DNA from: Russula earlei
Lineage: Eukaryota > Basidiomycota > Agaricomycetes > Russulales > Russulaceae
Length of the DNA stretch: 64,000 nucleotides
Assembly: GCA_025769875.1 (NCBI GenBank)
Contig: JAGFNK010000088.1
Span: 1-64,000, forward strand
Direction of reading: 5' to 3'
Positions 13,262-50,110 of the stretch are shown here, in pieces (within the stretch, counting starts at the first letter, position 1; each line of letters opens with the position of its first letter). The notes beneath the pieces are model-generated. The model saw nothing but the letters and a program-made list of their open reading frames with translations. It searched no databases and had not been told where the DNA came from. The position numbers and the translations under genes were made by a program.

Positions 13262-14212
13262 ATGCTCCCCGAATCCCGCACTTCCTCGCCCACTCCCACT
13301 CTTGTCAATGTCGACGTCGTCGTCCCAGAGGGCCCCCTCTCCCCTAGATCGATCGCCGCGGTCCTCAACGGCCAGCCTGAGCTCGACCCCGACACCCTCC
13401 GTGGGATGGTGGCCGGGGTTCTTCTCACGGTGGCTGCGCGCGAAATGGAACTGGCCGCGCGCACCGAAGCCCTCTTACGCGCCGAGTTACAAGCATCCCA
13501 CCAGGCCGACACCCTGGTCGACCTCACAGAACGCCTCCAACGGGCCACTGAACGACCCACGCTCGCCGTTTGCCCTGAGGGGTTCGTCCCCAACATGGGG
13601 CATGCCCCGGGACTTTGGCTCCCTGGGACCGAGGGACGCGTGCAACTCGCGCGTTTCGTCCAACGTAGCCCCCATTCCCCTACCATGGTCGTCGGAGTCA
13701 TGGGAGACTCCGACGACGATCCCCGCATCGGCATGGAGATATTTGCCTCCCCAGTCGACGACCCCATCGGCCCCATCGACGTCCTCCCCAGTTGGCTCCT
13801 CAAACAGATGGGAGCCAACTCTCCCACCTTCCACCGTCTACTCGAAGAAGCTAGCAAGGCAGACGATTGGGGGCTGGCCGCCGACGTCCAGCGCTACAGG
13901 GGCTGGGACGAACACATCGTCGTCCTCCAAGCCGACATCGCTCAGAAGGAGGCCGAGCTCAGGACGGCGCGGGAGTCCCAGAACCGCGCGCGCTACCGAC
14001 TCGAGGCCGCCCGACTCGCCGACCGCGTCTCTCACATTTGCGTGTCGTGGGACGGGACCCCCTACGCGCGCCGTGTCTCCCTGGCCGGGTGGCGCAACCA
14101 TGGTCCGGGACGTCCCAATCTCGACGAGGGTGATGACACCGCCAGCCCCACTCGTGGGCCACGTGGCACAGGAAGTCGCAACGGTCGCGCGGTTCGACCG
14201 TTCGAGCTTTGA
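13262..14212 (+). CDS. Third ORF of element H (ORF3, unknown function)
   Basis: A 316-residue ORF starting at ATG 13262 just after the chromodomain and ending inside the 3' LTR. It lies in the -1 frame relative to pol, and both frames stay open for about 1 kb. Composition is normal for a protein, and residues about 45-95 and 220-265 are Glu/Arg/Ala-rich and likely coiled coil. The block around residue 140 (PTMVVGVMG) and the LAADVQRYR block near 224 line up with PMLLGTIG and LADIYRLR in the ORF3 of chromovirus G. No zinc knuckle is seen. I do not recognise a named family. It could be a structural partner of Gag or a targeting factor; this is inference. Confidence 0.75.
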   Translation: MLPESRTSSPTPTLVNVDVVVPEGPLSPRSIAAVLNGQPELDPDTLRGMVAGVLLTVAAREMELAARTEALLRAELQASHQADTLVDLTERLQRATERPTLAVCPEGFVPNMGHAPGLWLPGTEGRVQLARFVQRSPHSPTMVVGVMGDSDDDPRIGMEIFASPVDDPIGPIDVLPSWLLKQMGANSPTFHRLLEEASKADDWGLAADVQRYRGWDEHIVVLQADIAQKEAELRTARESQNRARYRLEAARLADRVSHICVSWDGTPYARRVSLAGWRNHGPGRPNLDEGDDTASPTRGPRGTGSRNGRAVRPFEL

Positions 14213-14453
14213 TGTGGTGCCGCAGTATCGTAGCGAGGGGGACATGAGGCTGCTCAGTAGTGTATATAAGGACTTGCCCTAAGCCTAAGAGAGGGCAAGT
14301 CGAATCTTTTGTCGTATCTCCCCCACGAACAATAGCAGTTACTTTCTCGCCCACTTCCCTCTCTCTCTCTCTCTTTCTCTCGAAGCCACGTCGGACGTGC
14401 GCTTACCTAAGACTCTCACGCTCGAACTCTGAGTACCGTACGCGGCGGTGACA
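14134..14453 (+). repeat. Element H 3' LTR
   Basis: Identical by eye to the 5' LTR over 320 bp. Followed directly by the second copy of the AGCTG target duplication. The 3' end of ORF3 and the open pol frame both run into it. Confidence 0.96.
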
Positions 14454-14458
14454 AGCTG

Positions 14459-16591
14459 TCTGAAACCACTTCCAACAACCTGCGCAGATAATACAACACA
14501 ATCAAAGACGCCGCCGCCCGACAACAACCTCAGTTCAACAGGGCTTCAATATATCCACATTATGTCGCGTAACCACAGGACATGCTTTCGTAGGTAAATA
14601 CAGGAAATGCGTTTCTATGCGCACCACACCCCAGGCCAAATCGCCTGCCAACGCAAGACACCCATCAAAACCAGACCATAGAACATGTGCTCAGGCTTGG
14701 AGAATGCACCCCTCCCCCAACGCGCTGAAAGCATCTAACAGAACGGCCAATTGCTCCCACGGAATCTGCCCCAGCTGTTCGAGCGGGCACAGAAGCTTCT
14801 GCTTCGGTTTTTCTAGGAGGAGTCAGGAGCCCCTGCCTGCGCTAAGCTGCAGGCAGCGTGGGGGGCCCAGGATGAGGATGAGGCAAAGGAGAGACAAGGA
14901 CGAGGAAGCGAACCATTATGATACCGCTTCACTGCATAGCCGGGGGGGGACCACCCATGACAAGTGGCACGTCCCAGCTCGCCACATGTTTACGTATTAA
15001 CGTGAGCGCCCGTATGATCGTACGCGCTGGGAGAATACAAATCCGGATTCCAAAAAAAAAAAGGTGAGTCCGAGACCATCGGTGCCTCAGGTGCGACTCC
15101 ATCAAGTCGAGCTGAACCAATAATCGTCTCCCCTGATGGTTTGATTCTTGGCAGTACAGTACCCTCCCAGTATCAATGTACTATGCCATTCGACGCGAAA
15201 CTACCACGTGGTATCGATAGCCTTGATGTTGCTGGGGGGCCAGTGACTAGAATTACCAGACTGGTCAATTCTAATACTCCCTAGTTGATTCTAGGCATTT
15301 CTTACTAGGTTGAAGTTTTCCTGATCGGCCTTACCATCAGCATCATTTGGGTAATATCTTCATCGGACATCGAAGTGGAGTGGCGGGGAAAAGAGATCGG
15401 TAAGGATGCAGAGAAAACGTCTACCTTTGGAAAGAAATAGGTACATGATAGTGTGGCGTATCATCATCGCTAGAAGAACAAGGCACGAGCGACAAAAGGG
15501 ACCAAGTGCCAAACAATGACGAGATGCACCATCTGCTGCCTTTTCATGATACCATATCCATATATTACTGAATAAACCCATTATAATTACAACAGTGTCC
15601 ACATATTGAGTAGCTCCGGAAGTTGCACAGGAACGACAGGTGATGATGCGATGATGCCTTGACCGTGAGATATACATTACGGATATATATAACCCAACCA
15701 GGTGTGGTGACAAATGGCGGAAGTCCTTTCACACGTAGGGTTACAGAGAACAAGCCAACAGCGGATATGATACATCAGCATAAAAGAAAGCAAAGATCCA
15801 GGATAAGAAGCGACTTCGGGAGGGGGGGCTCTGCGTCATTGCCGGGAAGAGGGCATCGGTCAGGTAACCAAGTGCTGTGGTGCAAAGTCCGGTGTTGTGG
15901 GAGCTTGTGGTGGGGGAATACCGGCACTTGCGCAGGCCTGGGAAAGTTGCCCGCGTAGCGTCCTCCCTCTCAGGTGGAATGCTGCACGATATGCACCTTC
16001 AGGGAGAATCAATATATGGAGCTAGAGAAAGAGCGTACCTTGACTGGGCCATAGGGAGTTGAGTACATCGATCGACACTAGGAATGATTTTGCGAGCTCT
16101 AGGGCTCGCAAGAGGTCTCTATCTCCTTCCCACAATGCGAGGCACCTGGAAACCAAACCTCTAATGAGGAAGGGATATCACAAAAAAAGAAAACGCGCCC
16201 ACGTCGCAACTTGGTTGGTGAACCAGCCGATGTGGAATGGGCGACGTAGAGTGACATGGGCGGAAGGCTCGGTAATACGCGTAAGGGGATTTCTGATGCG
16301 TTTCACGACTTGCTCCTGATAGTATACTTCCAAAGCGCACGCCCCAATCAGAATTACGTGGACGACCTCAGGAAAACCACCTACGCCACTCCTCAGCCAG
16401 TCGGTGGTTCCAAACGGGTTTTGCCGCCCTGGTATTCAGGTCAAGGAGGATGCTTATAACAAAAAGGTAAGGACGACGACGGGGATGACTAGGTGCAGAC
16501 GTTCTACCTTCTTGTGAGATACGTAACCTCAAGGCGGATGCTGCATACGACCATCAGACGGCGCTGACAGGAGTCCAGGCAATTCGGTCAC
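14459..16591. other. Unique intergenic region, no gene recognised
   Basis: CpG-containing single-copy-looking DNA. Small open frames (for example 14617-15000 and 15659-15958) have no recognisable motifs or good intron context. It lies downstream of the Zn2Cys6 gene and may contain its 3' UTR and further C-terminal exons that I could not model. Confidence 0.5.
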
Positions 16592-18062
16592 TCACTTGGA
16601 AATGAACTCGCGGCACATGTAGATCAGAGCAGTATCTATATTGCATACGTGCGCATCCAGTGCGTTCTCCACCACACGCGTCTCCACGAATGCCGCGCAC
16701 GCAATTCTTGTGCGCTCTTCCGTAGCCAGGCGTTCATCCCAGAAGCGCAAGGTGCAGTTCCAAAGGAGCATGCTGCGGCAGTAGAGGGCCCACACACTAT
16801 CCTTTCCCGAGTAAGGGGAGACGGTATCCTTGTAAGGGGGGACGTATTCTCGGCGTTGATGATACTCTCCAGGAAAGAGCAAGCGGAACTAATGGCAGGA
16901 AGGGCCGCCCCCGGGCGATGAGTAAAGGGATCGGGTGACGATAACACCGAGGAGAAGGGCAACATACATTTGACGGGTCGACCAGGAAGAGGTCCAGAGG
17001 CTGACGTTGCTCCGCGGCGCGCTCGGCTGTGTGATTTGCAACGAGTATGAGAGCGCTCCAGCAGAGGCGGCGTGTCTCCTCCGACTTGACCTCGGCCTCA
17101 GTCCATGAGGAGTCCCATGCGAGTTGTAAGGACCAGGTAGTGGATGAGTCAGGTGGCAACGTATCACAGTCACACTGCTTGGGCAGCGGGCGCGGATTCA
17201 TAACCGTGGGCACGCCCGTGGAGTGGTCAAGGGCATCGGGGTCACGTGCATCAAGGGCTGTGAGCTGCAGCGCTGCGATGATCTTGTCCAGCAAAATTAA
17301 CGCAGCTTCCACGCTGGCATCGTCGTACTGTGGGTGTGCTGATGTCTCAAAGAGGGCTAGCACCATTGCCGCTTCTGCGAGACCAAGGTCGACCCATTGC
17401 AAATTCCAGGACTCGTGAAGGTGCGCTCGGGCGGCATCGCGAAGTCTCAAGGCGTGGGCACGGCCACTGGCACCGCGTTCGATCTCGCTCGACCTGACGA
17501 GCATTGCCATTGCCAGGCAAGCATATACAAGCGCAGGTTGCATGTGCGTCCGCGCATTGGAGTCGAACAAGTCACGGAGGAACCAGTGGACGTTGAAAAA
17601 GGTTAACCAGTGACCGCAGGAGGTGAAACTGCATGGAGATGAGGACCAAGAAATATTGGAGCGGACGTCATGACGGCACTCAGGGCCTGAACTCACAGAT
17701 TATTAAGGTCGTTGGCCATGGCTTCGAGACTATGGACACGGGTTAGGCGTTCTGTAGCAAGGAAATCTGTGCCTCACGTACGATTGCTCAGGTGTTCGGG
17801 CGTAGGTATCGAGAATGTTATCCCACCATGCTTTGCGGTACTGGACAACCTGCGTTTCGGCGAGGGACGGTGAAGGGTCTTCGTACGAGGACAGTTCCGG
17901 GGAGCGAAGATCTGATTCAAAAGAGCGAGAGAACGCCTGCCCTGGCTGGATCTCGCTCCTCGAGGGACGGGATGTTGATGGGGTCTGCGTCGACGAGGGT
18001 GATGGCTGCCTCTGAGGTGAGTCGGGATGGTCCATGCGGTGAGAAGGATTCTCGGAGAGCAA

Positions 18063-18100
<38 letters not shown>

Positions 18101-19219
18101 AGAGGAGCAGGGTAGAGCTCACCTTTACATAGTAGGCCTCATGGAGGGCTGCGGTGGGGGGCTCAGTGTCAACCTTGCGGGTCTTCTGATGGGCTGGACC
18201 GGGAGAGATCTCATACTGACTGTAGCCTGCGTGAGCGGTGGTGACCTGGTCGACTGGATCCGTTCGCCGTTTTTTCTTCGGCTGAGGGTCTGATCCATCC
18301 GATTGACGTTTCTTGCAGGAGCGTTTTCGCGTGCCAGGCCGTTTATCTGGCCCTCGTCGCTTAGGCACTTTATCGTATACGCATTCATTCCCTCGCTTAA
18401 TACAGTTCTGACAATTTGGCCGAGTGGAATCGCAGCGAATCTTGCGTGACCGACTAAAGAGACCGTGCGTTACGGATAAGGTTGAGGGGAGGTTTCGGAC
18501 AACAGGGCAGAACGATGACGCACCATTGACGACAGGCGATGACGCCGGAAGAGAGGTTGCGTGGAGGGCCGGCTCTTGAGGACGAGGCCAGGGACGCATC
18601 GGGATGTAGGACTGCGAGTGAGGACGTGGAAGGATCTATAGTGCCCGCTGGGGAGTGCAAAGGCGCCTGGGGTATAGGGGCAGTTGTGGTTACGGATGAG
18701 TGGAAATGTGAAGGATGGATGTGAGGGGCAAGTGGGGGGACGTCAAGCGAGGTGGTGGTGGACCTGTTGAGAGCCGGGTTCATTAGCAAGGGGAAACAGT
18801 GTGGCATGGCAAGCTCGTATGCGGAAGATGTAAATGACTGGGTGTGTGATTGGACGGAAGCATTATAGGCCAAGGCAGTGTTCGGAGGTTCTTTGGGGTA
18901 GCCATGATGATGTGCCCCAAAACCCTGTGATTGTGGGTAGCATTGAAAGTTGTTAGGAGGAGCGATAAGGGTATCGCGAGGCAATAGGCAATCGGAAGCT
19001 ATTGGGTGATATCGGGCTTTATGGAGGGCTGAGATGAGCGGAACTGTGGAGAGATCGAGTGATGGACGCACATTCCGTTGGTAGAAAAGCGGCAAGGGGG
19101 TGTTCAAAGACCGGGGAGTGCAACTCTGAATCGTCCTCACTCGATTGAAAGCCCTCGGGTTCTGGTGGGCTGGCCCTGGAAAAGGGAGTGTACTGCTCAT
19201 TATTTAAACTGGCCACCAT
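16592..19219 (-). CDS. Zn(II)2Cys6 transcription factor, 7 predicted exons
   Basis: Likely DNA-binding regulator acting in the nucleus. My model on the minus strand uses start ATG at 19219 and introns 19071-18999, 18523-18454, 18122-18012, 17781-17730, 17696-17629 and 16967-16888, all GT-AG and 52-111 bp. Splicing at 18454-18523 joins ACRQC to RSRKIRC and completes the six-cysteine cluster C-x2-C-x6-C-x6-C-x2-C-x6-C; without it the first cysteines are out of frame. A basic Arg/Lys region follows (KRRGPDKRPGTRKR), then a Pro/Ser-rich linker. From about 17628 on comes the hydrophobic middle-homology-like region (WLTFFNV, YACLAMAML, RRLCWSALILVANHTAE). The C-terminus after 16592 is uncertain, since a GTGAGT donor overlaps the stop. 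The target genes are unknown. The intron at 18012-18122 holds a 37-nt homopolymer. Confidence 0.85.
18063..18099 (+). repeat. 37-nt poly(G) tract in an intron
   Basis: 37 consecutive G on the plus strand, so poly(C) in the transcript of the Zn2Cys6 gene. It lies between the GTGAGC donor (18122) and the acceptor at 18012. The intron is 111 bp, a multiple of three, so the frame also reads through as polyproline. Length is likely unstable and the exact count may be an assembly estimate. Confidence 0.9.
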
Positions 19220-24133: not shown

Positions 24134-24518
24134 TGTTGCGCAGCATAGAGCGCAGCTAACAGGCCAAGCAACCCACCTTAGAGGTTGTGCTAATGCTCAA
24201 GTGATATTGGGGTGTAGAGTGATGTGTATACTCATCTACAAGTATGGTATTTATACCTCTATGACCCAGGGCTGTTCCTAAGTCCAAAAGAGGTGACTAC
24301 AGGTGTCCACTATATCGCGCATTAAGTGACGCGTGATGTGGAAACGTTCTAGACGCAGCATAAGGCTGCATCTTGTGATAGATAGCGTAGTATGCGTAAC
24401 CCTATTGCCATAAGCGCATATACTAAAGTTCTGTCTAACACGTAACATCTATGAGCGGATCTTGAACCTTGTGTGAAGGTCTTCGCCTTCTTTGATCCGT
24501 TCGGGTTCCGGTTCAACA
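24134..24518 (-). repeat. Copia 3' LTR
   Basis: 385 bp, the 3' LTR of the minus-strand element. Differences from the other LTR include GCGTAGTATG against GCATATTATG and GGTTCCGG against GGTTCTGG. Confidence 0.93.
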
Positions 24519-24567
24519 CTCCCCCTTGCTAAGTGCATCGGTAGATGCCGTGAGCATTTTCCCACAT

Positions 24568-27500
24568 TCAGGGGTAGAACGTTAGTCCTAGTTGCTCCCT
24601 GAATTTGAGGAACTTGACGCGACCAAGGTTCTTGGTGAACATGTCGGCTGGGTTGTTAGCCCCTTCAATAAAGAATAGCTCCACCTGTTTATTTTGTATG
24701 ACTTCACGAATGAAGTGATAGCGCAAATCAATGTGTTTGATGCACTTTTCTTGCACAGGGTTGGAGGCTAAGAATATTGAGCCTTGGTTATCACCGAACA
24801 GTGGGATGGGAGCAAGATTGATGCCAAGTTCTGTTAGTAAGGATTTAATCCAAACTAACTGTCTGCTCATGTCAGAGAGCGACATGTACTCAGCTTCAGT
24901 GGAGGAGAGCGTGACTGTTTTCTGTGCTCGTGAGTTCCACGAAAATATTGCTCCAGCCAGGTTCACCATATAGCCTGTAGTGGACTTCCGATTAGTCGGA
25001 TCAGAAGCCCAGTCAGAGTCAGCATATGCCATTAGGCCGCCATTAGATGGTCCATCATAGACCAAGGCATAATTGGCGGTTCCCAAGAGGTATCGGCAAA
25101 TATAGAATGCACAATTTAAATGGTCCTCTGAGGGATTGGCAGCATGTTGTGACAACTTAGTGACAGCAAAGGCTATGTCTGGACGCGTTCCAAGCATTAT
25201 GTATAGGAGTGATCCTATAACCTGCTGGAATTTTGACCGCAAGGCTGGGTCAGCAGCGGAAGTGTTGGGAGAGGGGTGATAGCCCTCTGGTAGTGGAGTA
25301 GGAGCAGGGTTTGCATTAAGCAAGTCGAAACGCTGCAGCACTTTCTGTAAATATTCAGTCTGGTCCAGATGTATCTGGCCTGACTTGCGTTGAATGCGCA
25401 TGCGTAGAAATTCTTGGGCATCGCCCAGATCTCGACATTCTCAGAGCTTCATGAAGTGCTCCTTTGTTTTATTGATTTGTTTTTTGTCTGCTCCAAAGAA
25501 GAGCACATCATCAACATAGACGATGGCTATGATGCTCTTGTCTTTACTAACAAAGAGTCCAGAGTCAGACATAAGGCGAATAAGGCCGAGCGAGGCCATG
25601 GACTTGTCAAGGGCTTTCCACCAAGCAAGTGCCGCTTGCTTGAGTCCATATATTGCGCGTTTAAGGCGCATGACTTTGCGCTCTTGGCCTTTTATTTTGA
25701 CTGCTCCATATAGAGCTCTTCATCGAGCTCACCATAGAGAAAGGCAGTCTTGACGTCTAGTCCGCTAATGTGCCAGTTTTTGAGTGCTGCGAGCGCAATC
25801 ATCAGGCGGACTGTCTCAAACCGTACCACGGGTGAGAATATTTCGTCATAGTCAATGCCTTCTACTTGGGAGAAGCCTTTGGCGACTAGTCTGGCTTTTT
25901 TATGACCATCAGACTTAAGGTCGAATACCCATCTATTTTTAATTATCTTGCGATCCTTGGGAGGATCGACTAGTTCGAAGACTTTGCGTCTGCGGAGGGA
26001 TTCCAACTCCTCGTGACAAGCATCTTTCCACTCCTTTTGGAGTTCACTTGGCATTCACAGAATGTCCCTAAAGGTCCATTCGCGAATTTTCGCAGTATCA
26101 GGTGCATCTGAACTTAGTGGAACTGCTTGGGCGAGCAGATAGTTCAGAAATTTGACTCCCCCTTCCCTAGCTAGATGTAGAATGTCTTCTACCTCATCCT
26201 CAGAGGCTTGCGGCGGTTGATCGTCAAGGATGACAGGAGGGTAAGGGCCTGGGGCGGCCGATCCTGACGTACTACCCTCACCGGAGCTACCGGGTTGGTT
26301 TTCTGTCATTGTTCTCCATGTGCGTGTGCGCCGAACGTCTTTTTCCACTTCTGTGGGGTGTCTGCGTTCACCATAGACGTTGTCTGGATGGGTAGGTACT
26401 TTCCTCAACCGCTGAGACCTTCGAAGAGGTACAGGCTCTTCAACGGGAGGAGGGGACGGTGTAGGAGGGACAGGCGTTTGCTCGCGTTCCTCTTCTTGTG
26501 GCGCCTGTATAGGCTGCTCATCGTCCTCACTTTTAATTGTAGGGAATGGGTCGTCAACACCAGGAATGGTGTCTTCGACAGGTTGTTGCGGTAGTTCCTC
26601 ATGCGGTTCATTAATCCGCGTGGTACCTTTAGTGCGCGCTTTGTCGCATTTGGGGTACAGGGTCTCATCGTATAGGGCGGTAGCATTTGTGTAAAGCATA
26701 TTATTAGGAAGCCTCATAAAGAGTGAGGCTTTGATCCCCTCAGTGTGACCAAGGTAGATCATAAGCTCGCTTTTAGGCGAAAGCTTGTTGACTCGACACT
26801 TTTCTGGTATGTGCACATATGCACCGCAACCAAATACTCTGAGGTGTGAGATATCAGGGACCTCGTTCTTTAGGACTTCGTAGGGTGTACGCCATTGAAG
26901 GCATCTGGCAGGTGTCCTATTGTAACAGTGTGTCCCATGATTCACTGCAAATTCCCACCAGGAGGGAGGTAGACAAGCTTCAAGGCGCATTGCCTGAGCT
27001 TTTTCCATTACAGTGCGCATAAAGCGCTCTGCGCGTCCATTCTGTTGTGGAGTGTATGGGGCACTTTGCAGGGTTTTAATTCCTTCGTCCTTCAGGACGT
27101 TATCAAAGGCCTCGGACTTGTACTCTCCACCAGCATCGGACATCCACTCTTTGATTCCTGCTTTGTATTGGTTTTTCACCATAGCAAGGAATTGCTTGAC
27201 GGCCATTATGGTCGACTTTTTATTTTTTAAGAGTGTGATCCATGCATAGGAGGAATAATCGTCAATGAAGCTGATGAAATATTTGTACTTATGATACGAC
27301 TTCACAGGGAAACTCTTAAGGTCCGAGTGGATACGCTCGAACGGTGCGGAAGCACGAGTTTCAGAAGGGGGGTGCGCAGATGCAGGCATTTTGCCTTGCG
27401 CGCAGCCAGGACATACCGGCTGTTCCTGAGGGATTTTCAGGTCTTCAGGGAGACCCTTGGTATGTGTCTTAGCACGTGTTACAACATCCTTAGATGGGTG

Positions 27501-28534
27501 GCCAAGGCATCGGTGTATGACATCATAATCTACCGCGTAGATAAGAGAATGCGCTTGCGCGCTTTCAATTGAGGCGTCTAACCAATATGTGGTTTGACCC
27601 AGGAATAAGGGGTAAGAGGACAGGATTATATGTCCGTCCTCTCGTAGGGAAATATGATTTCTATTCCCTAATGCATGCATCCCTTGTTGTAAAAACTCCC
27701 CCATAGATAATATCTGAGTGTTAATTTTCGGAATATAGAGAACAGGAGAAATGCGCGTGACAACTGTTTTAGAGTTGACAGTGTGCCGAAGCAACACAGC
27801 GCCTTTGCCTTCCACATATATAGTGTTATCGGCAGTTTTAACAGGGGATCTTTTGTGCGGCAAAGCCGGTGTATACTCTATAAAGTCTTTTATTTCAAAG
27901 GTGAAGTGTGTGGACGCGCCAGAGTCTAGGAGCCATAAGGATCCCATTTTACTCAAGTCGTGCTTTCCTCTACATCTCGAACAATTTTTGTTACATTCAC
28001 TTTGAAGGGAAGTAGTCCCTTCGCTAATTTGTACATCATATGATACAAGCGAACATTTATTAGACATATCTAGCCCGCTTTGGGGCTGGGGAGATGCTAA
28101 TAGGTTCTTTAGCGAGTGAAAGGAGAGAGGAAGGTGCACGCACGCTTCGTTATCTTCGGGGTTGCTGCCCCAATCAAGCGCTTCATCCGACGGAGTTGGA
28201 GCACGCTCAGGGGTGGCAGCACCTTCTGGGATACCATCATATATGTCGAATAAATCCGACATATTTGTTTGCGCGAAGTCGCCATCATCCTGGTCCATGG
28301 GCTCAGGGATGGGCGACGGAAGTTTGACTGCACTTGTCGAGGCAGCGGATTGAGTTGAGATCCGCTGCTCGAGGGTCTTGACTGTCTGTATAGTGGGAGT
28401 TACCCCAAGATCGTCAGCAAGATCAAGCGCTTTGTTTAAGGCCTTGTAAGGGCCGTGAGTGCGTTTGCGAGGGTCAGTCGCAGTCGGGACGGTACGTTGT
28501 TGGATCCCCGAAGGACCCAGATGGGCGATGGTGG
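24568..28534 (-). pseudogene. pol: Copia Pol (PR, IN, RT, RNase H), interrupted
   Basis: Protease LLDSGASTHFT at about 27914, then GAG-pre-integrase zinc motif (HRCLGHPS ... CPGCAQGK). The integrase core has its triad in HSDLK, SDAGGEY and NGRAER. RT follows with YVDDVLFFG near 25500, then RNase H with ADSDWASD and SSTEAEYMSL, ending TKNLGRVKF. Defects on the minus strand: TGA at 26055-26057 directly before a further in-frame stretch starting MPSELQKEW, a small deletion and frame change near 25690-25705 just before KIKGQERK, and TGA at 25441-25443 before ECRDLGDA. A frame change also separates Gag from Pol at about 28530. Catalytic residues themselves are intact. Confidence 0.92.
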
Positions 28535-29401
28535 GAGTGGAAGTGTGGCAACGTCCGCAATGTGGGAGTGTCTGGGACCATGGCTGCTATCAGCCTTCTC
28601 CTTGCCTTTCCCTTTTCCTTTGCCGCCGCGCTTGCCGCGCTGGCGCTTATCCTTATCTTCATCGCGCTTGGGCTTATTGCCCTGCTGCTGATTAGAGAAG
28701 GAGGGGTCACCGTGCTTGCGCTTGACAGCTGAAAGCTTCTGCGCGCTGTGCTTCTTGTTTGTACCACGATTGATCTCAGTTTGATATTGAGAGACAATAG
28801 CCTCTCGCACGTGTTTTGGACTAAGATTGTCTAGTTCATAATTCTGAGTGACGATGTGGACAAGCATTTCCCATTTCGAGGGAATAGCTGCAAGCATGAT
28901 GAGTGCCTGTAAGGCGTCAGGAATGATAAGGGAGGATGTGGTGAGGCGCTGGAACGCAGCGTGTATCCGATCCATTTGAGGGCCAGGATGCTGGCTCGGG
29001 TTAATGCAAATGGAGATGGCTTCTTTAAAGTCCTTATAGATGCTGGTGGTAGTCGCCGTTCCATAGAGGGTATCAAGGCGATTCCAGATTGTCTCAGCGT
29101 TATCCAAAGACGTAAGATCTTGTTGGATCGCGATGCTCGATCTAAGGACCATATGACCGACTGCCATATCATTTCCTTTGTTCCATTCTTTCACAGCTGC
29201 CAGAGCGACAGCCTGGGCAGCAATCTCTTCGGGAAGAGGCGCCTGAGGAAGGGCAGGGATGGTAGGCAGTTCAAAAGTGCCATTGCAATAACCCCACAGT
29301 CCAATGGACATGAGGTAGGCTTTCATAGCCTTTGACCAAATACCATAGTTTGCTCCATCGAGGATGGGGACAACTGGGGCAGAGGGTTGAGACGATGACA
29401 T
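28436..29401 (-). pseudogene. gag: Copia Gag (UBN2-type)
   Basis: Capsid-type protein of copia elements. The N-terminus has the copia Gag pattern LDGANYGIWSKAMKAYL, followed by W-rich helices (TIWNRLDTLYG), MLAAIPSKWE and HVREAIVSQYQTE. A Lys/Gly-rich basic tail (GKRGGKGKGKGKEK) takes the place of a clear zinc knuckle. After about 28530 the frame is probably wrong and the true protein continues into the Pol frame. Start ATG at 29401 lies about 157 nt inside the 5' LTR. Confidence 0.85.
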
Positions 29402-29569: not shown

Positions 29570-29954
29570 TGTTGCGCAGCATAGAGCACAGCTAACAGGC
29601 CAAGCAACCCACCTTAGAGGTTGTGCTAATGCTCAAGTGATATTGGGGTGTAGAGCGATGTGTATACTCGTCTACAAGTATGGTATTTATACCTCTATGA
29701 CCCAGGGCTGTTCCTAAGTCCAAAAGAGGTGACTACAGGTGTCCACTATATCGCGCATTAAGTGACGCGTGATGTGGAAACGTTCTAGACGCAGCATAAG
29801 GCTGCATCTTGTGATAGATAGCATATTATGCGTAACCCTATTGCCATAAGCGCATATACTAAAGTTCTGTCTAACACGTAACATCTATGAGCGGATCTTG
29901 AACCTTGTGTGAAGGTCTTCGCCTTCTTTGATCCGTTCGGGTTCTGGTTCAACA
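29570..29954 (-). repeat. Copia 5' LTR
   Basis: 385 bp 5' LTR of the minus-strand element, directly followed by the CAAAG duplication at 29955-29959. Confidence 0.93.
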
Positions 29955-30475
29955 CAAAGGATGAGCCAAAGGTAAACAGGAATGGGGGCCTGGAGGATGT
30001 CAGTGTCAAGACACATACTGCTGATCCCTAGGACTCAGGATCAGGTGGGCAAGGGTCAGAACAGATGATAGGCAGCATAACATGCATTGAACAAGAGGAT
30101 GAGCCAAATGATGAGGAGGTATAAGGTGGGGACTGGTACATGTTGCAAGAGGCAGAGGTGAAGGTTGGATGCCAGTGCAGTGAAGGGGCTTTAGACAAGG
30201 TAGTCGTCAAAGAGTACCTTAGGAGTGAGGGAAGTCTTTAAACAGAGCAGTTGTGGGGGAGTACCCTGGAAGATGAGAGTATCACAAATGGACAGTCTGA
30301 CGACTGCCATGCTACATTGGGGCTTATATACTAGTTACAAGTCTGAGTACAAACTACAGAAAATAACTCAGACTCTTTGGACTGCTCCAATTGGATTCTA
30401 GGGGCATAAACCTGTTGAGTCAGACCTATAGGTGACTCAGGACAATTAGGGAGACTGTGGAGCAATGACATCATT

Positions 30476-35188: not shown

Positions 35189-35224
35189 TGTCATGAACCA
35201 TTTCCCAGAAAGGGCCCTTGAAGG

Positions 35225-35832
35225 TGTTACGGCGTCGCGGCCATAAGAGCATTAGCTCAAGGTTCAATGGGGCCAAGTCCCTGTGACTTGGTTCAAGGGT
35301 TCAGTGGGGCCGGCTCAAGGAGACCGGGTCAAAGATTTAGCGTCTCAAGGCTGAGTCAGATAAGGACTCAGTCCGCAGACAGAGTCGATCTCCTGGTTAC
35401 ACAGAAGAGGAGGGTGATGGTAGAGCAAGAGAGGAGTGAGAGGAATGCAAAAGTTCCTCCAATGTGTTGGTATCAAGCAAGGTAAGAGTCAGCACAAACA
35501 GGTTGTGATTTGAGAGAGGATACAGGACAAAGGGATGCGACAGGAAATGGGACAAAGCTAAGCTTGGGGCATTCCCCAGCTTCTACAGGCGCTTAAATAC
35601 TGTATGTAGCGAGGCTGTACAGTACCATAAGCAGAACAATAAGTAAAGGTAGACCAACAGCAAAAGTAGCTCAACAATAGATGAAACACAATAAGTGAAA
35701 CACAATAAGTGAAACACAATAAGGGATCACTATCAAGGGATGAAACGGTAACCACGGGAACAGAGATAACAAGAGGAATAATAATGGGGAGGGATTATGA
35801 GCAAACCGATAAGGGGGTAAAATATAACATCA
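35225..35832 (-). repeat. LTR-G, 3' LTR of chromovirus G
   Basis: 608 bp on the minus strand from TGATGTTATATTTTACC (complement of 35832) to the complement of 35225 (TGTTACGGCG on the plus strand). The polypurine tract ATGAGGGGGGCA lies directly upstream on the minus strand (35833-35844). It inserted in an LTR-B fragment (TGTCATGAACC at 35189); the sequence beside it is GAAGG (35220-35224). The homologous solo copy is at 6504-7101. Confidence 0.88.
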
Positions 35833-35859
35833 TGCCCCCCTCATGCTTAGTTCTCCAAA

Positions 35860-37737
35860 CTAATTGGTCTCAGGGCCTGACTCACGGAGTTCATTGCCCT
35901 CGACTTCTGGCCACATGCTCTGGGGCCCCATTGCCCTGGGGCAGAAACCCCTGTAGCTCCGATGGGTCTTCCTGAGGATGCAATCCACCTGTCCGCTACA
36001 ATTAGTGTGAGGTCTGTTGCAGTCCTTGTTCCAATGCCCCCTGGTATTGCAGTGTTTGCAGATGTGTTGTCGCTTCTGAAGTTGATGATGCTGTGCTTTA
36101 GTCATTCACGCGGGGGTGAGAGGGGTGTTGGGGGTACTGGCGTCATCAGAGAACATTTGGGGGAAGTGGGATGGTGACCCCATGGGAGCGTCGTTTTGGG
36201 ACTGGTCGACAACACGGGAAGGGAGGTATTCGAGGGGAGGGGTCAGGGAGAGAGAAGGATGAATGGACGGTGAAGGGGAAATGGACGGTTCCTTCGAGTC
36301 CTCAATTTTGTCGTAACTCCCTGCTAGTGAGTAATATGGCCCAACATCGCGGGTAAGCCCCCCATCCGTCATCAAGTTATCGAGCTGATGGCGAACTCAG
36401 ACGGAAGTGTTGTTGGCCCGAAGGCGACTGTGGATGGTGGCGGTTTCTTTAGTGTGGGACTGGATTTCATGGAGTCGGTCAGCAAGCTGCCCTTGAAGGA
36501 CACTAAGAGCCCCTTGAATAGAGGCGCGTTTGCCCTCCAAGACTTTCAGTTTAAAAGAGCTGACACGGAGACGGTAGATGTCGGCAAGAGCACCAGGGTC
36601 ATGGAGGTTTTCAAGTGCTTGAGCAGCATCGAAGTGGAAGGGGTGGTCCTCAATGAGGAGGCGGAGGTCAGAGGCAGTGACAGAGGGATGAGGGGCAGAG
36701 GTAACGGGCCGGGTGACGAGCTTTTCTCTGTAAGTGGGTTCTCCTCGACCTATAGTTCCTAAAAGCATGGGTTCGTCATTATATAAGGCGACGCGTAAGT
36801 ATGGTAGTAGGCGCTTTCGCCCGTTAACGTAAATGTGGAAAGGTGGAACATGCGTGTAAGGTTCGTAAATAAACCAAGGGGGGCCGGGGTGAGTGGGGTC
36901 TGTTTGGGTCGGGGTTGGCGAAGGTGTGCCTTCTCGGATGGCGAGTGGGTTGAGAGTAGCGGCAAGGTCTTGGACTTCGGTTTCGTCTGGGACGATGAAG
37001 GTTTGTTGGTCGATGATATGTTGAATAATTTCAGGCGAGAGGGGTTCTTGTTTGATAGTGGGGGAAGGAGTGAGGATAGGCAGGGGGGATGAGTTAGAGG
37101 CGGGGGACGACATGGGGGTGTTGTAAGTAGAGGTAGCGTGTTTGTGGTGCCAGGCTGACCACTCGGAAGGGGTGAGGGTATTTATGTAGGCTGAGCGTGT
37201 GATATGGTTCCATACTAAATCTGTAAGTACTGCTCTTCGTACGGATAGATGAAACTCAGAGAAACGGGGGTCCATCATAAGTAATTGAAAACCGCGGAAG
37301 TCGCCAGGGGAGAGAATTCCGGAGAAGAGTTGTTCTCTGGCAGCTAAGTTGAAAATTGTATATCTGCGGTCGGGGATAGCGGGGTCATTAACGGAATAAG
37401 AAGGGGGGTTACGTGAGTTAATTCGGGGGAGTAATGTACGTTGTTGTATCGTAAGTGTTTGGAATTGATGCTCTAAATCGTCCAGATTTTCATCTGAGTG
37501 ATGGGATTCTGCGGGATCAGAGTTAGTGGTGGTCATGGTACGGAGTTTGGTGGGTTGTTGGAGGTGAAACATGGTGATGGCGTCTTGAGCGTTTTTAAGG
37601 TTTGAGAGAGGTTCCCAGGTATCCTCTGCTGTGGAATACCCTTTCCACCGGACCCTGTATTGGAGTCGGTTTCTATGAAGGCGTTGGGTGGTAATCTTTT
37701 CGACTTCATATTCTCCCGAGAGAAGGTCAGGTGGTGG
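35860..37737 (-). pseudogene. Chromovirus G: Pol chromodomain fused to ORF3 with zinc knuckle
   Basis: The minus strand from 37737 reads PPPDLLSGEYEVEKI, then a chromodomain (RLQYRVRWKGYSTAEDTWEP, about 37605-37720). It runs without a stop into ORF3, whose own ATG is at 37536 (MTTTNSDPAESHH). ORF3 holds the block NDEPMLLGTIGRGEPTY near 36735-36785, LADIYRLR, a predicted coiled coil, an acidic Ser/Pro linker and the CCHC knuckle CKHCNTRGHWNKDC at about 36020-36061. Two stops interrupt one otherwise continuous frame: TGA at 36397-36399 and TGA at 36106-36108; both could come from CGA by C-to-T change. The function of ORF3 is unknown; the knuckle suggests nucleic-acid binding. Confidence 0.8.
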
Positions 37738-37748
37738 TAGTGCTGTCG

Positions 37749-37783
37749 CCGGCTCGGCTCGAAACCGTTTCGAGCCGAGCCGG
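37749..37783. repeat. Perfect hairpin, 16-bp arms
   Basis: CCGGCTCGGCTCGAAA and its exact complement separated by CCG. It lies 11 bp inside the left end of the TIR-bounded unit. Further GAGCCGAG motifs occur to 37860 and at 45483-45512 near the other end. Confidence 0.9.
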
Positions 37784-38090
37784 AGCTGTATTTGAGCCGA
37801 GCCAAGCTGTTCAATGGCTCGCGGCTTCGAGCCGCTCGAAACAGCGCGAGCCGTTTCGAGCCGTTTTGATTGCCACATTTGGATGTTTGAAGTGCCACAT
37901 TTGGATATGGTTGCTCGATTTGGAGAGTCGTCTGCCACTCTGCTCCGCCAGATTTGGGTATGTAGCTCGATTTGGAGAGTCGTCTGCCAATCCCCACCAC
38001 GCCTTGCTCTCGCAGGCTGCAAGCCTTCCTTCATCCTGCCAAGATCCGTTAATCATCTCCCCCACCCCAACCCTACTGGAGCTCTCAAAG

Positions 38091-39935: not shown

Positions 39936-39975
39936 CGTCGCGTTAGAAACAAATGTGTGTATTCTACTCGGTTAG

Positions 39976-40940
39976 TGTCAAGACTCACTGTTGAACTATC
40001 CAGTTCAAGAGCGAGGGGTAAGCTTGGAGATGAGTCGATAGACGTCCAAGACGGCATGGGCAAGGAGTAGAGTCCAGAGTAGTAACAGATACCAGAGAGG
40101 TACTGTCACTGTGAGAGTTGAACAATCACGCAGAGAGGAGGCCAGGATAGTCACAAGGGGATGGTCCTTAAAGGAGTATCCCAGGAATAGAGAGTGCCGT
40201 AAACAAATGGACAGTCTAAGGACTGTCCGCTACTTTATTGAGCGCTTATATACTACAAGAGAACTGCTAAATAGGGAACAAGTCATAACCTTGTTATCAA
40301 GCACAATAGAGTGATGAGTAAGAAGCTGGAGTGTGTTTACTGAGCATGCTCAGTCATGCTCAGTAAGCTGCTGAGTAAGAAGGCCTCTCTTGATGAGTAA
40401 GAGCTTTCACTTGTACTTGTCCACGTGTTCACTGTTTTAGTGCACATGCAAGCACCTGCTTCCTTTCCTGTTAGTTAGTTTAGGGCCGGTCATTTGAGGA
40501 CTTGTAGTTTGGTTATGGAGTAGTGCTATCTTATAAGGCCCTTATAGTTCTATTAGGGTCCTTTAGAGTCGACCCTAATACTTCTATTAAGGTCCTTAGT
40601 ATTGCCTTATAATTCGTTCTATGGTTATTAGAGTTGGTCTAATAACACGTTGTAGGGCCTTTGATACTAGGTTAGTGCCTATTGTAGAGCACCTAGAGTC
40701 ATTCCAAAGGGTCCTTAGGAAGGCCCTAATACTGTCCTTTATTGCTAGAAGGGTTGCCTTTAAGTGGGGCTTGCTGTATGTCGATTGTGCCAAGAATTGC
40801 TCGCGCGACAATGCGACAATATTGTGGACACCTCTACTCACCCCTTTTGCTCGTGTGAACAGGGTGACACCATAGAGGCTGGGTTTCCTCCTATAAGGAA
40901 GGGTCGTTCAAGGGCCCTCTCCAGAGAATGGTTCATGACA
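39976..40940 (+). repeat. Solo LTR-B, TSD GTTAG
   Basis: 965 bp complete family B LTR with perfect GTTAG on both sides (39971-39975 and 40941-40945). It inserted after the gene fragments were already in place, interrupting a coding-like stretch. Confidence 0.95.
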
Positions 40941-41001
40941 GTTAGAAATTTGACCTTTTCTTTGAGGAGGAAGACTCGATTGAAGGTATGAAGAAAGCTC
41001 A

Positions 41002-41192
41002 TTCACGATGGGCAGGAAAGGATAAGTCGACTCTGCTTATAGTCAACTCAGTGGATAATAAAAGTAAAATATTTCAAGTGCTGAGTAGGGTCTGTTGCGG
41101 CCACAAATTATATTACATAAGTAATGACCTTAGTTGAGCACGAAAAATGTGACAAAAAAGGTTAAATATGGAGAGTCTACTCATTCCAGCAC
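41002..41192 (+). repeat. Single arm of the foldback element
   Basis: 191 bp, nearly identical to each arm of the inverted repeat at 57632-58039 (for example TTATAGTCAACTCAGTGGAT and GACCTTAGTTGAGCACGAAA). The mirror arm is absent, so this is either a half-element or the ancestral unit. Confidence 0.88.
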
Positions 41193-44575: not shown

Positions 44576-45524
44576 GGAAGAAAAGGGGTAAAAACTAGCA
44601 ATGTTTTCCATGTCCACTGTAAGGTATCTGGCTGGGAAACTCACATGACCTGTACCAGGCCCATTGCGTGCCTGCATGTCTCCTTCATTCAGTCCCTCGC
44701 TCACGCGTCCTCCTTCCTATCCTCCTTCCTTTCCTTCTCTCTCTGCGCACTCACCTTTCGACGTCATCTCCAACTCTGCGCCCGGGAACTGCGACAACAC
44801 CCCAGTCCGATCACCTTCGACGTCACATGCCTCGCCTTCAACACCTCGCCCTCAATGCCTTGCTGCCAACGCCTCGCTCGCCCGCCACACATCTACGTGC
44901 AGACACCATGACGCACGCACAACATCATCACCGCCCTACGCAAGGGCTCGCTGCCCATAGCGTCTCGCCCCCGATGTCATCACCTTGCTGCCTCACACTC
45001 TGGGACTTGGAGTAGCACTAGAGTAGCACTTTTGTATTTAAGATCAGTAGCCACCATTTTGTACAGTAGCTAATGGATCAAATGAACAGCTTTCTAGTAT
45101 TCGCGTTGGCCCTCTCGTCTGCCTGAAGAACACTTTGACTCCCTCAAGATCTTCCTCTTTTCCTTCAAGAACACAGGCCCGGGCAGGCTTATGGGTGTGC
45201 AGACGGCAAGTGGACGTGTGCTTGCATTGATGCCTCAGTTGTCACAAGAGCATTCTCAAAATGGAAAGTTGATAACTGTAGTCTGTAGATCCAAAAGTAG
45301 AAATGGCCCAAATGGGATGGCTTGAATCAGCTCAGCCAATGAGAGGCGTCAAGAGCATTCTCAGAATGGAAAGTAGATCCAAAAGTAGAAATGGCTTAAA
45401 TGGGACAGCTCGAATCAGCTCAAGCCGCAAGCTGTGGCTTGGCTGCTTGGTCCAGCTCACCCAATCTGGCCAAGCCGTTGCTGAGCTGAACCGAGCCGAG
45501 CTGAGCCGAGCTGTGACAGCACTA
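44576..45524. other. Low-complexity and subterminal repeat, no gene
   Basis: 44640-45010 is C-rich with three overlapping open frames and no motif. 45250-45410 contains two near-identical tandem units of about 100 bp (AGAGCATTCTCARAATGGAA). 45480-45524 is the GAGCCGAG-rich right terminus of the TIR-bounded unit. Confidence 0.55.
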
Positions 45525-48500
45525 GCATTATGTGCAAACTCCATAAAGGGAATTAGTTCTGCCCAATTGTCCGCTTGATGGTTGCAAAATATTTGTAGGT
45601 ATTGTTCTAGTTCTCGGTTAACTCGTTCTGTTTCTCTATCTGTCTGTGGGTGATATGCCATGCTCAATGATACTTTGACATTTAACTTCCTCCATAGTTC
45701 TTGAGTAACCTTTGCTGCAAACTGAGGGCCTCTGTCTGATATTATTTGGGCCGGGAGGCCTATTCTTCTCCAGACATTGTTCATGATTAGTGTCGCTGTT
45801 TCGTGTGCTGTGATTGTCTTGTGGCAAGGGGTAATGATTATTGCTTTGCTGAATCGATCTACCACAACTAGGAGGCTGTCAAAGCCTTGTGAAACTGGTA
45901 GGTCTGTGATAAAGTCCATGGTAATGCTTTTCCATACTTCTCCAGCTGGTGTAATTGGTACGAGGGGTGTTTCTGTCTTTGGGCGGTTCTTTGTGCTTTG
46001 GCAAATTGCTGCAACCGTCTACATAACTTTTGACATAGGTTAGCATTCCTGGCCACCAATAGTTTCAGGCTGATTAGTTCATAAGTTTTCCATTGGCCAG
46101 GATGCCCAGTGGCAAGGGAGTCATGATGTAGTTTCAGAATTTTCTTTCTTAGGGTGTCATTGTTTGGGATATAGACTTTTCCTTTGAATAATATTAGTCC
46201 ATCTTCGAGGTTCCAGTCCTGTAAGCCTTTGGATAGTCGTCTTGGTCCATTCTTTATAATGATTGCTAATGCGTTAGATACTTCTGGGTCGTAGTCTTTA
46301 CTAGATCATAGTTGTTGTCAAAGTTCTTGGTCGCCAATTGGTTCTGTAGCAGAGGTGCGTGTTGCTCTAATTTTAAAATATTTGTCATCTAGGAGCACCT
46401 TTCCATCATTTTCGTTTTGTATCCCCTCTTTAAAGTCTGGCCGCCTGGACAGACCATCTGCTTTGTTCATAGTTCCCGGGTGATGGGTGATGGTAAAGTC
46501 AAAGTTGCTGAGAAGGAGTGCCCATCGGGCTTGTCATCTCGTGAGTTTTTGTTTTGTCATGAAGTATGTCAAATTATTGTGGTCCAGTCCATAGATCAAT
46601 GGGGTGTGTAGTGCCTTCAAGGTAGTGTCGGAAGTGCCAGAGGGATAAAACGATGGCAAGGAGTTCTTTATCATAGATCATGTAATTTCGTTGTGTGGGG
46701 TCCAAGGATTTCGAAAAATAGGCTATTGGGTGATATCTATTAAATTCATCAGGTTGTTCCAAGATTGCGCCAACTGCAAAGTCGCTTGCATCGCAGATGA
46801 GTCGAAAGGGTTTAGTATGATCAGGTAACATGAGGATTGGGGCCTGTTGTGAATGCTTGGACTAGTTTTTGAAATGCTTGTTCTTCATCGTCTTCCCACT
46901 TGAAGGGGTTTTCTTTCTTTGTTAAGTTAAACAAGGGTCGCGCTATCCATGAGTATTGGTGGATAAATCGTCAATAGAAGTTGCAGAATCCTAGAAATGC
47001 TTGTACTTCTGTAACGTTGGTCAGAGTAGGCCATTTTGTAATGCCTATTAGTTTGTCCTGATCCATGGATATGCATCCTTGGGAGATATTGATGCCCAGG
47101 TAACTAATAGAGGTTTGTCAAAAGGCACATTTCTCTGGTTTTAGATACAAGTCATGGTCTTGGAGTGTCTTTAGGACCTTGTGTGTTCAGTCATCTAATT
47201 CGTTCAAGGTTTGCGCCATGATTAGTATATCATCTAGGTAAACGACCACTCATTCAGTGGCAATGTATTTTGCTAGGATGGTGTTCATAAAGCATTGGAA
47301 AGTGGCTGGGGCGTTGCAGAGACCAAATGTCATTATCAATGGCTCGAAGAGTCCTAATGGTGTCTTGAATGCTGTGAGGTGCTCATCGCCCTCTCTTAGG
47401 CAGGATATTGTTGTATCCCCATCGTACATCAAACTTGGTGAAGTATTGAGCTCCTTGGAGTTTGTCGATTAATTCAGGAATCAAAGGTAGTGGATATGCG
47501 TCTTTGACAGTTGCTGCATTCAGGGCTCTGTAGTCTTGTACCAGGTCGTAGATTTCCTCCTTTCTTTTCTACAAAGAAGAATGGACTGGCAATAGCTGCT
47601 TTTGATGGTCGGATAGTGCCTCTTTTCAAGTGTTCATCTAAGTATTCTTTTAGGGCTTGTAGTTCTTTGGGAGTAAGTCGATAGATACCAGAATCGCGTC
47701 GGGCGATCCCTGGTTTCAGATTGATTGCATGGTCCCATGGTTGGTGAACAGGAAGGCGTTGAGAGGCTTGTTTGTTGAAAACCTTTCGCTATTTCAAGAA
47801 CTGGGCAGGGATAAGTTTGTCTAATGTCTTGGGAGGTGTTTCTGCATGGGCTAGTTTGGTAGCTGTGGTTGATTTGGCTCTTATGCTGATCGTCACTGGT
47901 CAGAATGCATTGTAGATTTGTTCATCCACACATGGGTTCAATAGTCTTTCAGTATCTGGGAAGATTAGTGCAGCAATGTTTGTGAACTCAGGTTCTTCCT
48001 CTTCAGGAAAAGTAAGCGCTTGTATTTGGTAATTCTGCGTTCCAGATGCAGATGCAATGGTTATGCTTGGGTGTGTGGTAAGACAGGTTTGGGGGCAATT
48101 CCTCAGTGTGATTGTGTCATTTGCCCAATCGATATCCGGGTTGTGGTGTCGTAGCCAATCTGTTCCTAAGATGATGTCGTGATCTCCAATGTTAGTGACA
48201 AGGAATTCTGCTTGTTCGTCATGAGTAGTGCCTGTGTGCACTTGAATGCGAAGTCTTTGGATGGTGCTAAAGCGTATTAGTCCATTGGCATTTTGTGTTC
48301 CATCTACATTTTGTGCTGGCAATGGTTTGATCATAGTTCAGAGGTGCAGGTGGTGTCTTTGTGTGAATCGTTCGTGGATTATCATTCCTTCTGCTCCACT
48401 GTCGAGCAGGGCTCTTGCACCGATTTCTTTGCCACTTGTCTTCCCCACTAAAGTAATTTTCAAGGCAATAGATGGGGAGTGAATATTCTTGGTAAAAACC

Positions 48501-48540
48501 TTGAAGTTGCAATGTATGCTTTGTTAGGAGGGAAGTCAAT
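45525..48540 (-). pseudogene. pol: Decayed gypsy Pol (PR, RT, RNase H, IN), C-terminus missing
   Basis: The minus strand reads protease ALLDSGAEGMII near 48400, then LGTDWLRHHNPDIDWA. RT follows with [18 protein letters not shown] and VVVYLDDILI near 47240, then LYLKPEKCAF and VQAFLGFCNFY. RNase H has CDASDFAVGAIL and YDKELLAIV. The integrase core has MDFITDLPVSQGFDSLL, SDRGPQF and HPQTDRETERVN, where the usual Gly is Arg. Many stops and shifts. It stops abruptly at FMEFAHNA (45525) against the TIR-bounded unit. The missing integrase C-terminus and chromodomain would fit the piece at 37737, but the two pieces differ in CpG decay, so a single element is unproven. Gag is absent. Confidence 0.88.
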
Positions 48541-48647
48541 TAGGAACAGAAGTGGGTAGAGGGTACGAAGTAAAAGGGCTTTGTTGAGTTATTAACAGGA
48601 CAATATATGGCCAAGGCCTGGCCTTAGTTCACAACATACAGTACATG
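48541..48647 (-). repeat. LTR-A'-like 5' end fragment
   Basis: The minus strand from 48647 starts TGTTGTGAACTAAGGCCAGG and keeps the A-family start to about TTGTCCT, then diverges. It sits directly between decayed Pol on one side and the family D chromodomain on the other. Confidence 0.6.
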
Positions 48648-48684
48648 CCCTCCACCTACTGTTAAGAGCAAAGAATGAAATTGA

Positions 48685-48835
48685 AGCAATTCTAGATGCT
48701 CAAAGATTTGGACAAAAATGTAAAATACTCATGCATTGGAAAGGTTATCTCACACCAGACAACTCCTGGGTTGACCACCATGACCTAAACATCCCTGAAC
48801 TTCTCAAAGAATATTACTCTGATACAGCTGGATGA
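48685..48835 (+). pseudogene. Chromovirus D: Pol C-terminal chromodomain
   Basis: Reads NEIEAILDAQRFGQKCKILM, HWKGYLTPDNSWVDHHDLN and IPELLKEYYSDTAG, then TGA (48833-48835). This is a complete chromodomain with the aromatic and W-x-P-like positions recognisable. The upstream Pol has been lost. Confidence 0.82.
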
Positions 48836-48839
48836 CCAA

Positions 48840-50110
48840 ATGTATAAAATACCAATCCCCCCAACACTGATCCCTCACTTCTCTCCCCTGCCCCTGACTA
48901 GCCTTGACATGTCTTCCACTCCCAACTCACCTTCTGCATTGTCCACCACATTAGTCCCCACTCAACCACACTCACCAGCCCTTGTACCACTGCCACCATC
49001 TAGAGAACCATCTCCATCATCTGCTGCTACCATTAATACCAGGCTCCTGGTCAGATGCACCACACAACATGCCACCATGATTGTATGTGCTGACACACTC
49101 TGGGATGAAGACAGACTCCCTCTCCACCATACTCTGTGCTTTTGGCAATCATTCCCCCACACAAGGAACTATGTCTCCTATTAGAACCCACAGCCCCTCC
49201 TACCATGTCCACTCCCTCTCTCCAGATCCACTTCCTATCTCACAGAGACACTCCTATTCCTGAACGCCTAAACCATATCATCCTTCTCAATGAGAACTTT
49301 ACCCAACAACCATTGGATGATGGACCTCCCTCAGCATATAACACACCTACTTCTACTACCCCACAAATAACAACTAACCAAATGACAGAACTAGAGGAAC
49401 TAGGAGACAGATGGGAAGAAGGAGACCTAGGACTCAACTTGCTCATCCCTGACCCTGGGAATGAAGACAATGCCCTCCCACCATGATTCATCCTATCTGA
49501 CCTTGTCAATGGCTTCCCTTTCATGCTAGCCACCTATGGTCCTGGCTGTCCCACTTATCATATCTCCATCTGAGCTCAAGCCAATCCCTACCCTCACCCT
49601 CTCCTCACAAAGAAAGACATCTTACTCTTCCAAAATGGGCTGAAACATACCAAAGCAGTAGATGAAGCCCTCAGTTTTGAAGAAGACCTGTCTCTTGAAG
49701 ATGAAGTTCATAGGTACAGGTTTGCTATCAGAAAGGCTCAATAAAGCTTGCATAAGCCAACACCAAAACTTGCCTCAAGCCTCACATCCTCTTCCAATCT
49801 ATGCCCCATCTCATTGATGAGGAACACAAGGAAGCCAAGGAAGCCATCATGGACCCTTGGTATCAATTTCATCCCCACACCACCAATAAATGCTCATGGT
49901 GTAGTGATGGGGGACATGACACATTCAAATGCCCCAAAATCACAATATGTGTTCTTTGTAATTGCTAGGGACATAAGGCGGATCACTGCAGAACCCCCTT
50001 ATCATCATTGCAAGGTACACAAGATTTGCTGCATCCCTCGGGACCAAATACATTTTCACACCCACTATTGTAAATCCACCATCATCCCTTATGCTGCCTA
50101 GGATGTTAAC
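48840..50110 (+). pseudogene. Chromovirus D: ORF3 with two zinc knuckles
   Basis: Begins after the Pol stop, probably at ATG 48909 (MSSTPNSPSALSTT) in frame 0 and continuing in frame 2 from about 49136. From 49487 it reads FILSDLVNGFPFMLATYG and PGCPTYHISI, then PHPLLTKKDILLF, DEALSFEEDL and EVHRYRFAIRK, matching ORF3 of chromovirus G block by block. It ends in two CCHC knuckles: CSWCSDGGHDTFKC, and CVLCNC-stop-GHKADHC with a TAG at about 49966. Stops at 49484-49486, about 49573 and elsewhere show decay. A polypurine tract AACAAGGGGGTGA (50108-50120) follows, then the LTR. Confidence 0.75.

Follow-up and report, generated by a model that had tools for sequence, protein, structure and literature searches.

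Chromoviruses are usually described as retrotransposons that carry Gag and a Pol ending at the chromodomain. Here we describe three families of Ty3-type retrotransposons, H, G and D, in a 64,000-nucleotide stretch of the Russula earlei genome (C88:1-64000, referred to here as the window), each with an extra coding region 3′ of the Pol chromodomain that we call ORF3 (ORF, open reading frame). An extra ORF in fungal chromodomain elements is already known in print, fungal Gypsy elements having been drawn with an 'add. ORF' whose function is unknown (Novikova et al. 2010, PMC2864245, Figure 3 legend), and we set ORF3 beside it as a variant. Those are chromodomain Ty3/Gypsy elements of fungi like the ones described here; however, the legend gives the ORF without sequence, family or position, so its identity with ORF3 cannot be judged from it. 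A third ORF after pol, common to diverse retroelements, is likewise described for long terminal repeat (LTR) retrotransposons of bdelloid rotifers, where it encodes a GDSL esterase, a DEDDy exonuclease or an env-like protein (PMC5408684); nothing of the kind was found in the fungal ORF3, which gave no Pfam match to a GDSL or DEDDy domain. The TRP28 ORF of the plant Retand element, possibly nucleic-acid binding, likewise sits in the interval from pol to the 3′ LTR (PMC11963269), but Retand is no chromovirus and its ORF is antisense, whereas the fungal ORF3 is sense. In the open-licence literature searched, including PMC2774666, PMC5006619, PMC3248453 and PMC6338049, no title or passage describes the ORF3 family, which is no proof of novelty.

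The initial annotation of the window had placed an ORF directly after the chromodomain in all three families, and had read these ORFs as one conserved accessory protein whose connection to Pol varies. The evidence for such a protein is good in H and G, and D likely has it too: ORF3 sits within the LTRs and is under selection, and the H and G profiles match at an expectation value (E) of about 3e-7, with D joined only via G. In the window, the ORF itself was found in H, the sole intact copy of the three families, while the G and D copies are broken, with intact relatives elsewhere in the genome (66.6 Mb in 1374 contigs; loci with family copies outside the window are given L-numbers). The motifs quoted for the three families are all present, and the link to Pol does differ as described: fused in G, a -1 overlap in H and after a stop in D. 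Our reading, held tentatively, is that the three ORF3s form one divergent accessory family of Ty3-type chromoviruses, whose products would be oligomeric and work next to integrase.

Compared within the window, the three resemble one another only weakly (tblastn E of 0.23 between G and D, and 0.52 between H and G). For profile comparisons, rows were picked by hand: 8, later 7, of about 108 places for G, 7, later 6, sequences for D, and 16, later 17, H-type sequences. The H and G profiles matched at E 7.8e-5, then 3.2e-6 and then 2.9e-7 over 191 columns (latest range 2.7e-7 to 2.9e-7), and all of 200 column shuffles scored below the real alignment. This similarity is clearly not due to chance, and, judged from sequence profiles, the ORF3s of H and G are homologous. 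With single sequences, the z-scores between H and G ranged from 3.6 to 8.3 in six pairs of H1, H3 and H4, and H4 as a query found a G copy in the matching register, at an E of just 1.58. The G and D profiles matched at E 0.0047, and then at 0.0015-0.0039 with 0/200 shuffles at the real score; with full-length profiles, E was 4.4e-5 over 64 core columns, the alignment of the zinc modules coming second (0.031), and six single-sequence pairs had z-scores of 1.8 to 7.9. Homology between the ORF3s of G and D is hence probable. A combined H and G profile against D gave E 0.066 with none of 60 shuffles scoring higher, at a score margin of just 0.02, and nine pairs of H1, H3 or H4 with D had z-scores of -0.1 to 3.7; D is probably linked to the family only through G. 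Of the mutual profile matches anticipated in the initial annotation, that between H and G was significant and that between G and D is probable, while none was seen between H and D.

The architecture (LTRs, Gag and ORF3) was inspected in one element of each family, and in all three ORF3 is flanked by Pol and the 3′ LTR, while a Gag-type ORF carrying a CCHC knuckle is found upstream of it. Thus, ORF3 is neither a neighbour's Gag nor the only Gag of its element, and the Gag of an adjacent element, which the initial annotation had named as another possible source of the G and D ORFs, is excluded for the tested elements. It would be very surprising if ORF3 were an envelope gene, a displaced Gag or a neighbouring element's Gag: retroviral env does lie as a third ORF after pol, and G and D do have knuckles, but no transmembrane-like stretch was detected in seven ORF3 sequences (by hydropathy only; highest 19-residue mean 1.25), the Gag capsid domain and any other gag family of Pfam are absent from the ORF3 of H, G and D, and each inspected element has its own Gag-type ORF upstream.

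Within each family, ORF3 is under purifying selection. The ratio of nonsynonymous to synonymous substitution rates (dN/dS, by NG86) was 0.08-0.28 in 11 within-family pairs, 10 of them at or below 0.16 (0.12, 0.08, 0.11 and 0.11 in D; 0.12, 0.10 and 0.14 in G; 0.16 and 0.11 in H, with 0.10 and 0.28 in two close H pairs), ratios which are rough because many dS values exceed 1. Between H subfamilies, dN/dS was 0.35-0.45 at dS 1.4-1.9. ORF3 identity between the compared H subfamilies was 37-39%, against 80-90% in their reverse transcriptase (RT). Such fast divergence would suit a conflict with the host, and the ORF3s of H and D are encoded separately from Pol, as might be expected of a protein that works outside the particle, in regulation or against silencing, on the host or on element transcription; in intact copies, however, the frame of G runs on from Pol, and we regard such a role as improbable.

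As the initial annotation had reported, CX2CX4HX4C knuckles number one in G, two in D and none in H. The proteins measured, three of H-type and P0003, an H-type database protein, are knuckle-free and acidic, with isoelectric points of 4.9-5.6. The nucleic-acid binding that had been suggested is thus plausible, from the zinc knuckles, only for G and D, and does not hold as a feature shared by the three. By eye, G and D share a longer zinc pattern, CX2CX4HX4C-X2-PH-X2-C-X5-C, while three Gag knuckles have its first part only; as z-scores fail to distinguish knuckles of ORF3 from those of Gag, only this extension past the knuckle is specific. No Pfam family reached its cut-off in the ORF3 of H, G or D, where there were only matches below it, such as SLATT_4 (0.011) for D.

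An AlphaFold2 model of H, built from three sequences, had a mean predicted local distance difference test score (pLDDT) of 57.8, with a helix at residues 43-96, strands within 132-164 and helices at 188-199 and 203-261; that of G had a pLDDT of 42.5, with strands within 222-260 and helices at 288-310 and 314-374. The order of strands and helices is alike in both, at low confidence, and the agreement is weak evidence because both were built from the same three sequences. The best 42-residue heptad windows start near residue 210 in H, 333-339 in G and 264-272 in D, by a measure that has no null, and lie instead in the N-terminal half in P0003 and in the H4 copy L070. Against folds in the PDB, the H model drew 80 matches with E of up to 10, of which not one lay at or below 0.001, and these carry little meaning because the model is too weak. 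Comparison of H with the sequences of solved structures returned the coiled coils of Bicaudal D2 (0.052) and TRAF1 (0.22), neither of them significant, and the knuckle region of D hit 28 TAL-type or engineered TAL repeat chains (best E 1.6e-4), which we took as chance.

If the three ORF3s are one family, its proteins would consist of a small, predicted beta region followed by a long C-terminal heptad helix through which they may form oligomers, and they may act beside integrase, in the particle or the pre-integration complex. In G, ORF3 is part of the Pol polypeptide; those of H and D are probably translated from an AUG of their own. Contact with RNA or DNA would come in addition from the zinc modules of G and D, and for it H-type proteins would depend on Gag or on a partner. 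Perhaps ORF3 is no partner of integrase but a second assembly protein of nucleocapsid type, which would package the element RNA, or chaperone it, alongside Gag. The C-terminal knuckles of G and D and the long heptad helix would suit an RNA-binding assembly protein; however, H-type proteins are acidic and lack knuckles, and the ORF3 of G comes joined to Pol, a product that is scarce relative to Gag, so that we consider this a possible but rather unlikely role.

Several observations weigh against a single family working next to integrase. Direct profile similarity between H and D is at the level of chance (44 of 200 shuffles), and with core-only profiles the match between G and D weakens to E 0.009-0.023. 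P0003 remained unmatched to G (z of 1.1 and 2.5) and to D (z of -0.4 to 1.0 in three pairs). The zinc module of G scores just as well against the Gag knuckle of D (z 6.6) as against the ORF3 module of D (5.5), and Pfam leaves the D knuckles unrecognised and that of G under its cut-off. The pLDDT of both models is low. Moreover, among five RTs the identity is 80-90% between H subfamilies, 64-69% between H and D and 39-42% between G and the rest, which puts H with D, whereas in ORF3 the similarity is clearest between H and G and undetectable between H and D. Drawn from five RTs, this disagreement may mean that ORF3 was exchanged or that it changed fast in D. Part of this would follow if only G and H were one family and the ORF3 of D were an independent gain, resembling G in a short motif and a common zinc knuckle; the non-significant match of H and D, the core-only values of G and D, a wrong-register alternative that comes third (E 0.059) with the full-length profiles, and zinc z-scores that do not tell ORF3 from Gag knuckles all fit this. 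Yet none of the 200 shuffles reached the G-D score, the best single pair has a z of 7.9, the position of the gene is identical and the RT of D is near that of H, and we find an unrelated D unlikely.

The H element, inserted at 7724-14453 on the plus strand, is bounded by a pair of 320-bp LTRs (7724-8043 and 14134-14453) that are 100% identical, with AGCTG before the first and after the second; the identical LTRs and the perfect 5-bp target duplication point to a recent insertion. Its Gag ORF (8245-9825, exact start uncertain) has a Retrotrans_gag domain and a CCHC knuckle, and its Pol frame (9861-14282) encodes protease, RT, RNase H and integrase, complete and in Ty3 order, and a weak chromodomain at about 13056-13145 (Chromo 22.3 bits, under the 25.1 cut-off). 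In H, G and D alike, the integrase core rve is under its cut-off and the H2C2 finger above it. ORF3 of H (13262-14212) is, as annotated, an open ORF of 316 amino acids (aa) that overlaps Pol in -1; it has an ATG of its own, terminates within the 3′ LTR and holds the shared core at residues about 98-262. The window copy is unlikely to use a -1 frameshift to reach ORF3, because a stop lies in the frame of ORF3 five codons upstream of the ATG. At least 128 rows in the genome, including fragments, match H ORF3; such copy counts are lower bounds in all three families.

The Pol frame of H is open across the whole of ORF3 (13262-14282), and likewise in L070, L073 and L079, which raised the possibility that both frames are coding. 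Compared with the means of synonymous shuffles, Pol-frame stops numbered 0 against 3.3 in the window copy, 0 against 3.2 in L041, 0 against 6.8 in L070, 0 against 6.7 in L079, 0 against 5.1 in L073 and 1 against 5.5 in L061, and there was no deficit in L069 (5 against 4.9) or in the G copy L002 (15 against 15.4). Nine control stretches held 220 stops against 243 expected, three of the nine being stop-poor themselves. The Pol-frame protein over ORF3 showed no conservation in five between-subfamily pairs (z -0.5 to 1.7), and over the same bases the Pol-frame dN/dS was 1.2-2.6 in four H pairs, in which most of the changes fall at the third positions of ORF3 codons. There is thus no support for a functional Pol tail, its protein showing neither conservation nor purifying selection.

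The G copy in the window (35220-37737, minus strand) is a 5′-truncated remnant that starts near the chromodomain (37560-37710, in frame with ORF3; Chromo 53.8 bits in the relative L002). Sequence in the same frame does follow the chromodomain on the minus strand at 35860-37536, as annotated, but it is not one ORF, being interrupted by internal stops: the frame runs without a break from the chromodomain into ORF3 (open part 36397-38034) and is broken before the zinc module. The part of ORF3 up to the first stop (36400-37536) encodes 379 aa (P0002), with the shared core at about 36400-36882, and the zinc module, one CCHC knuckle with its extension, lies past the internal stops at 35938-36060. 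The N-terminal ~145 residues (about 1-145 of P0002) fall outside the alignments with H and D, and no relative of this part turned up.

Matches to G ORF3 make up at least 109 rows in the genome, 5 of which have uninterrupted frames of 1683-1693 aa with ORF3 fused in frame to Pol and the chromodomain. A single frame holds integrase, chromodomain, ORF3 and zinc module in L002 and L003, and in L004 and L006 ORF3 reads uninterrupted into the zinc module. Over L080 and L002, G has the complete chromovirus set (protease, RT, RNase H and integrase); in this element, on contig C37, the LTR pair is formed by L002:3715-3827 and the first 113 bases of L080, which are identical, and ORF3 precedes the 3′ copy. 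The internal stops of decayed ORF3 copies, in the rows of H and D as well as G, seemed by impression, uncounted, to be mostly TGA, and C-to-T decay would give such stops.

The D copy (from 48643, plus strand) is also a 5′-truncated remnant starting near the chromodomain. Its chromodomain and Pol end lie at 48674-48832 (Chromo 38.1 bits in the relative L031) and are followed by a stop at 48833. Here the initial annotation had placed an ORF at 48840-50110; D-type sequence does follow the Pol stop, but it is not an ORF, its pieces (48909-50110) being spread across three frames with many stops. The core (49502-49745) carries the NGFPFMLATYGPGCPTY and EVHRYRF motifs, and of the zinc knuckles (49891-49989), two in relatives, the second is stop-interrupted in this copy. 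A repeat of another family sits at 50523-51487 in the 3′ part of D. The genome holds at least 72 DNA rows matching D, and a protein search, in which 150 rows of 552 candidates were scored, gave 31 stop-free rows with a frame of at least 414 aa. Complete D ORF3s of 414-418 aa are encoded in L088-L091, with two knuckles in each of the two that were checked. In the D element on contig C40, L081:3-242 and L031:3021-3259 are 97.5% identical (the LTR pair, 240 bases) and ORF3 precedes the 3′ copy; the chromovirus domains were recovered in pieces (parts of RT and integrase), and Gag is divided between two frames, with only its knuckle, just under the cut-off, given by Pfam.

Two database proteins resemble ORF3, and neither has a functional name. 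P0003, an unnamed protein, is of H-type (29% over 266 alignment columns, E 3e-23), and F5148DRAFT_569745 (P0004), a hypothetical protein of Russula earlei, has a D-type core (75% identity over 57 aa) but a different sequence after it. No relative of G ORF3 was found in the protein database at E ≤0.01 among 7997 scored candidates, or for the G core within a Pol-length frame at E ≤10 among 1180, and searches of viral_contigs with queries A1 and P0002 gave 32 and 4 pattern matches and no relative.

Elsewhere in the window, minus-strand ORFs at 24568-29401, which resemble a Ty1/copia element, are flanked by 386-bp repeats (24134-24519 and 29570-29955) that are 98.4% identical. Another repeat family has at least five copies in the window (1-374, 1979-2352, 2827-3200, 40571-40940 and 51114-51487), 85-93% identical to the first, one of which lies inside the D remains. 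A 511-aa ORF at 52766-54301 is presumably kinase-like, from the stretches HGDLREPN and LDFDWGG, and an ORF at 63312-63932 has a long TPP tandem repeat (63373-63638) and then a Gag-like stretch at the end of the window.

More broadly, and with more doubt than for one family, the third gene might be an integrase-side oligomeric adaptor that is an old, regular part of many fungal chromoviruses and moves between lineages, fused to Pol, overlapping it or placed after its stop, with zinc modules gained or lost. Recognising ORF3 would let fungal hypothetical proteins such as P0004 be identified as retrotransposon genes and, if real, a strongly selected third protein, forming in one family the C-terminal end of the integrase polypeptide, would be a new player in chromovirus assembly or in the choice of target sites.

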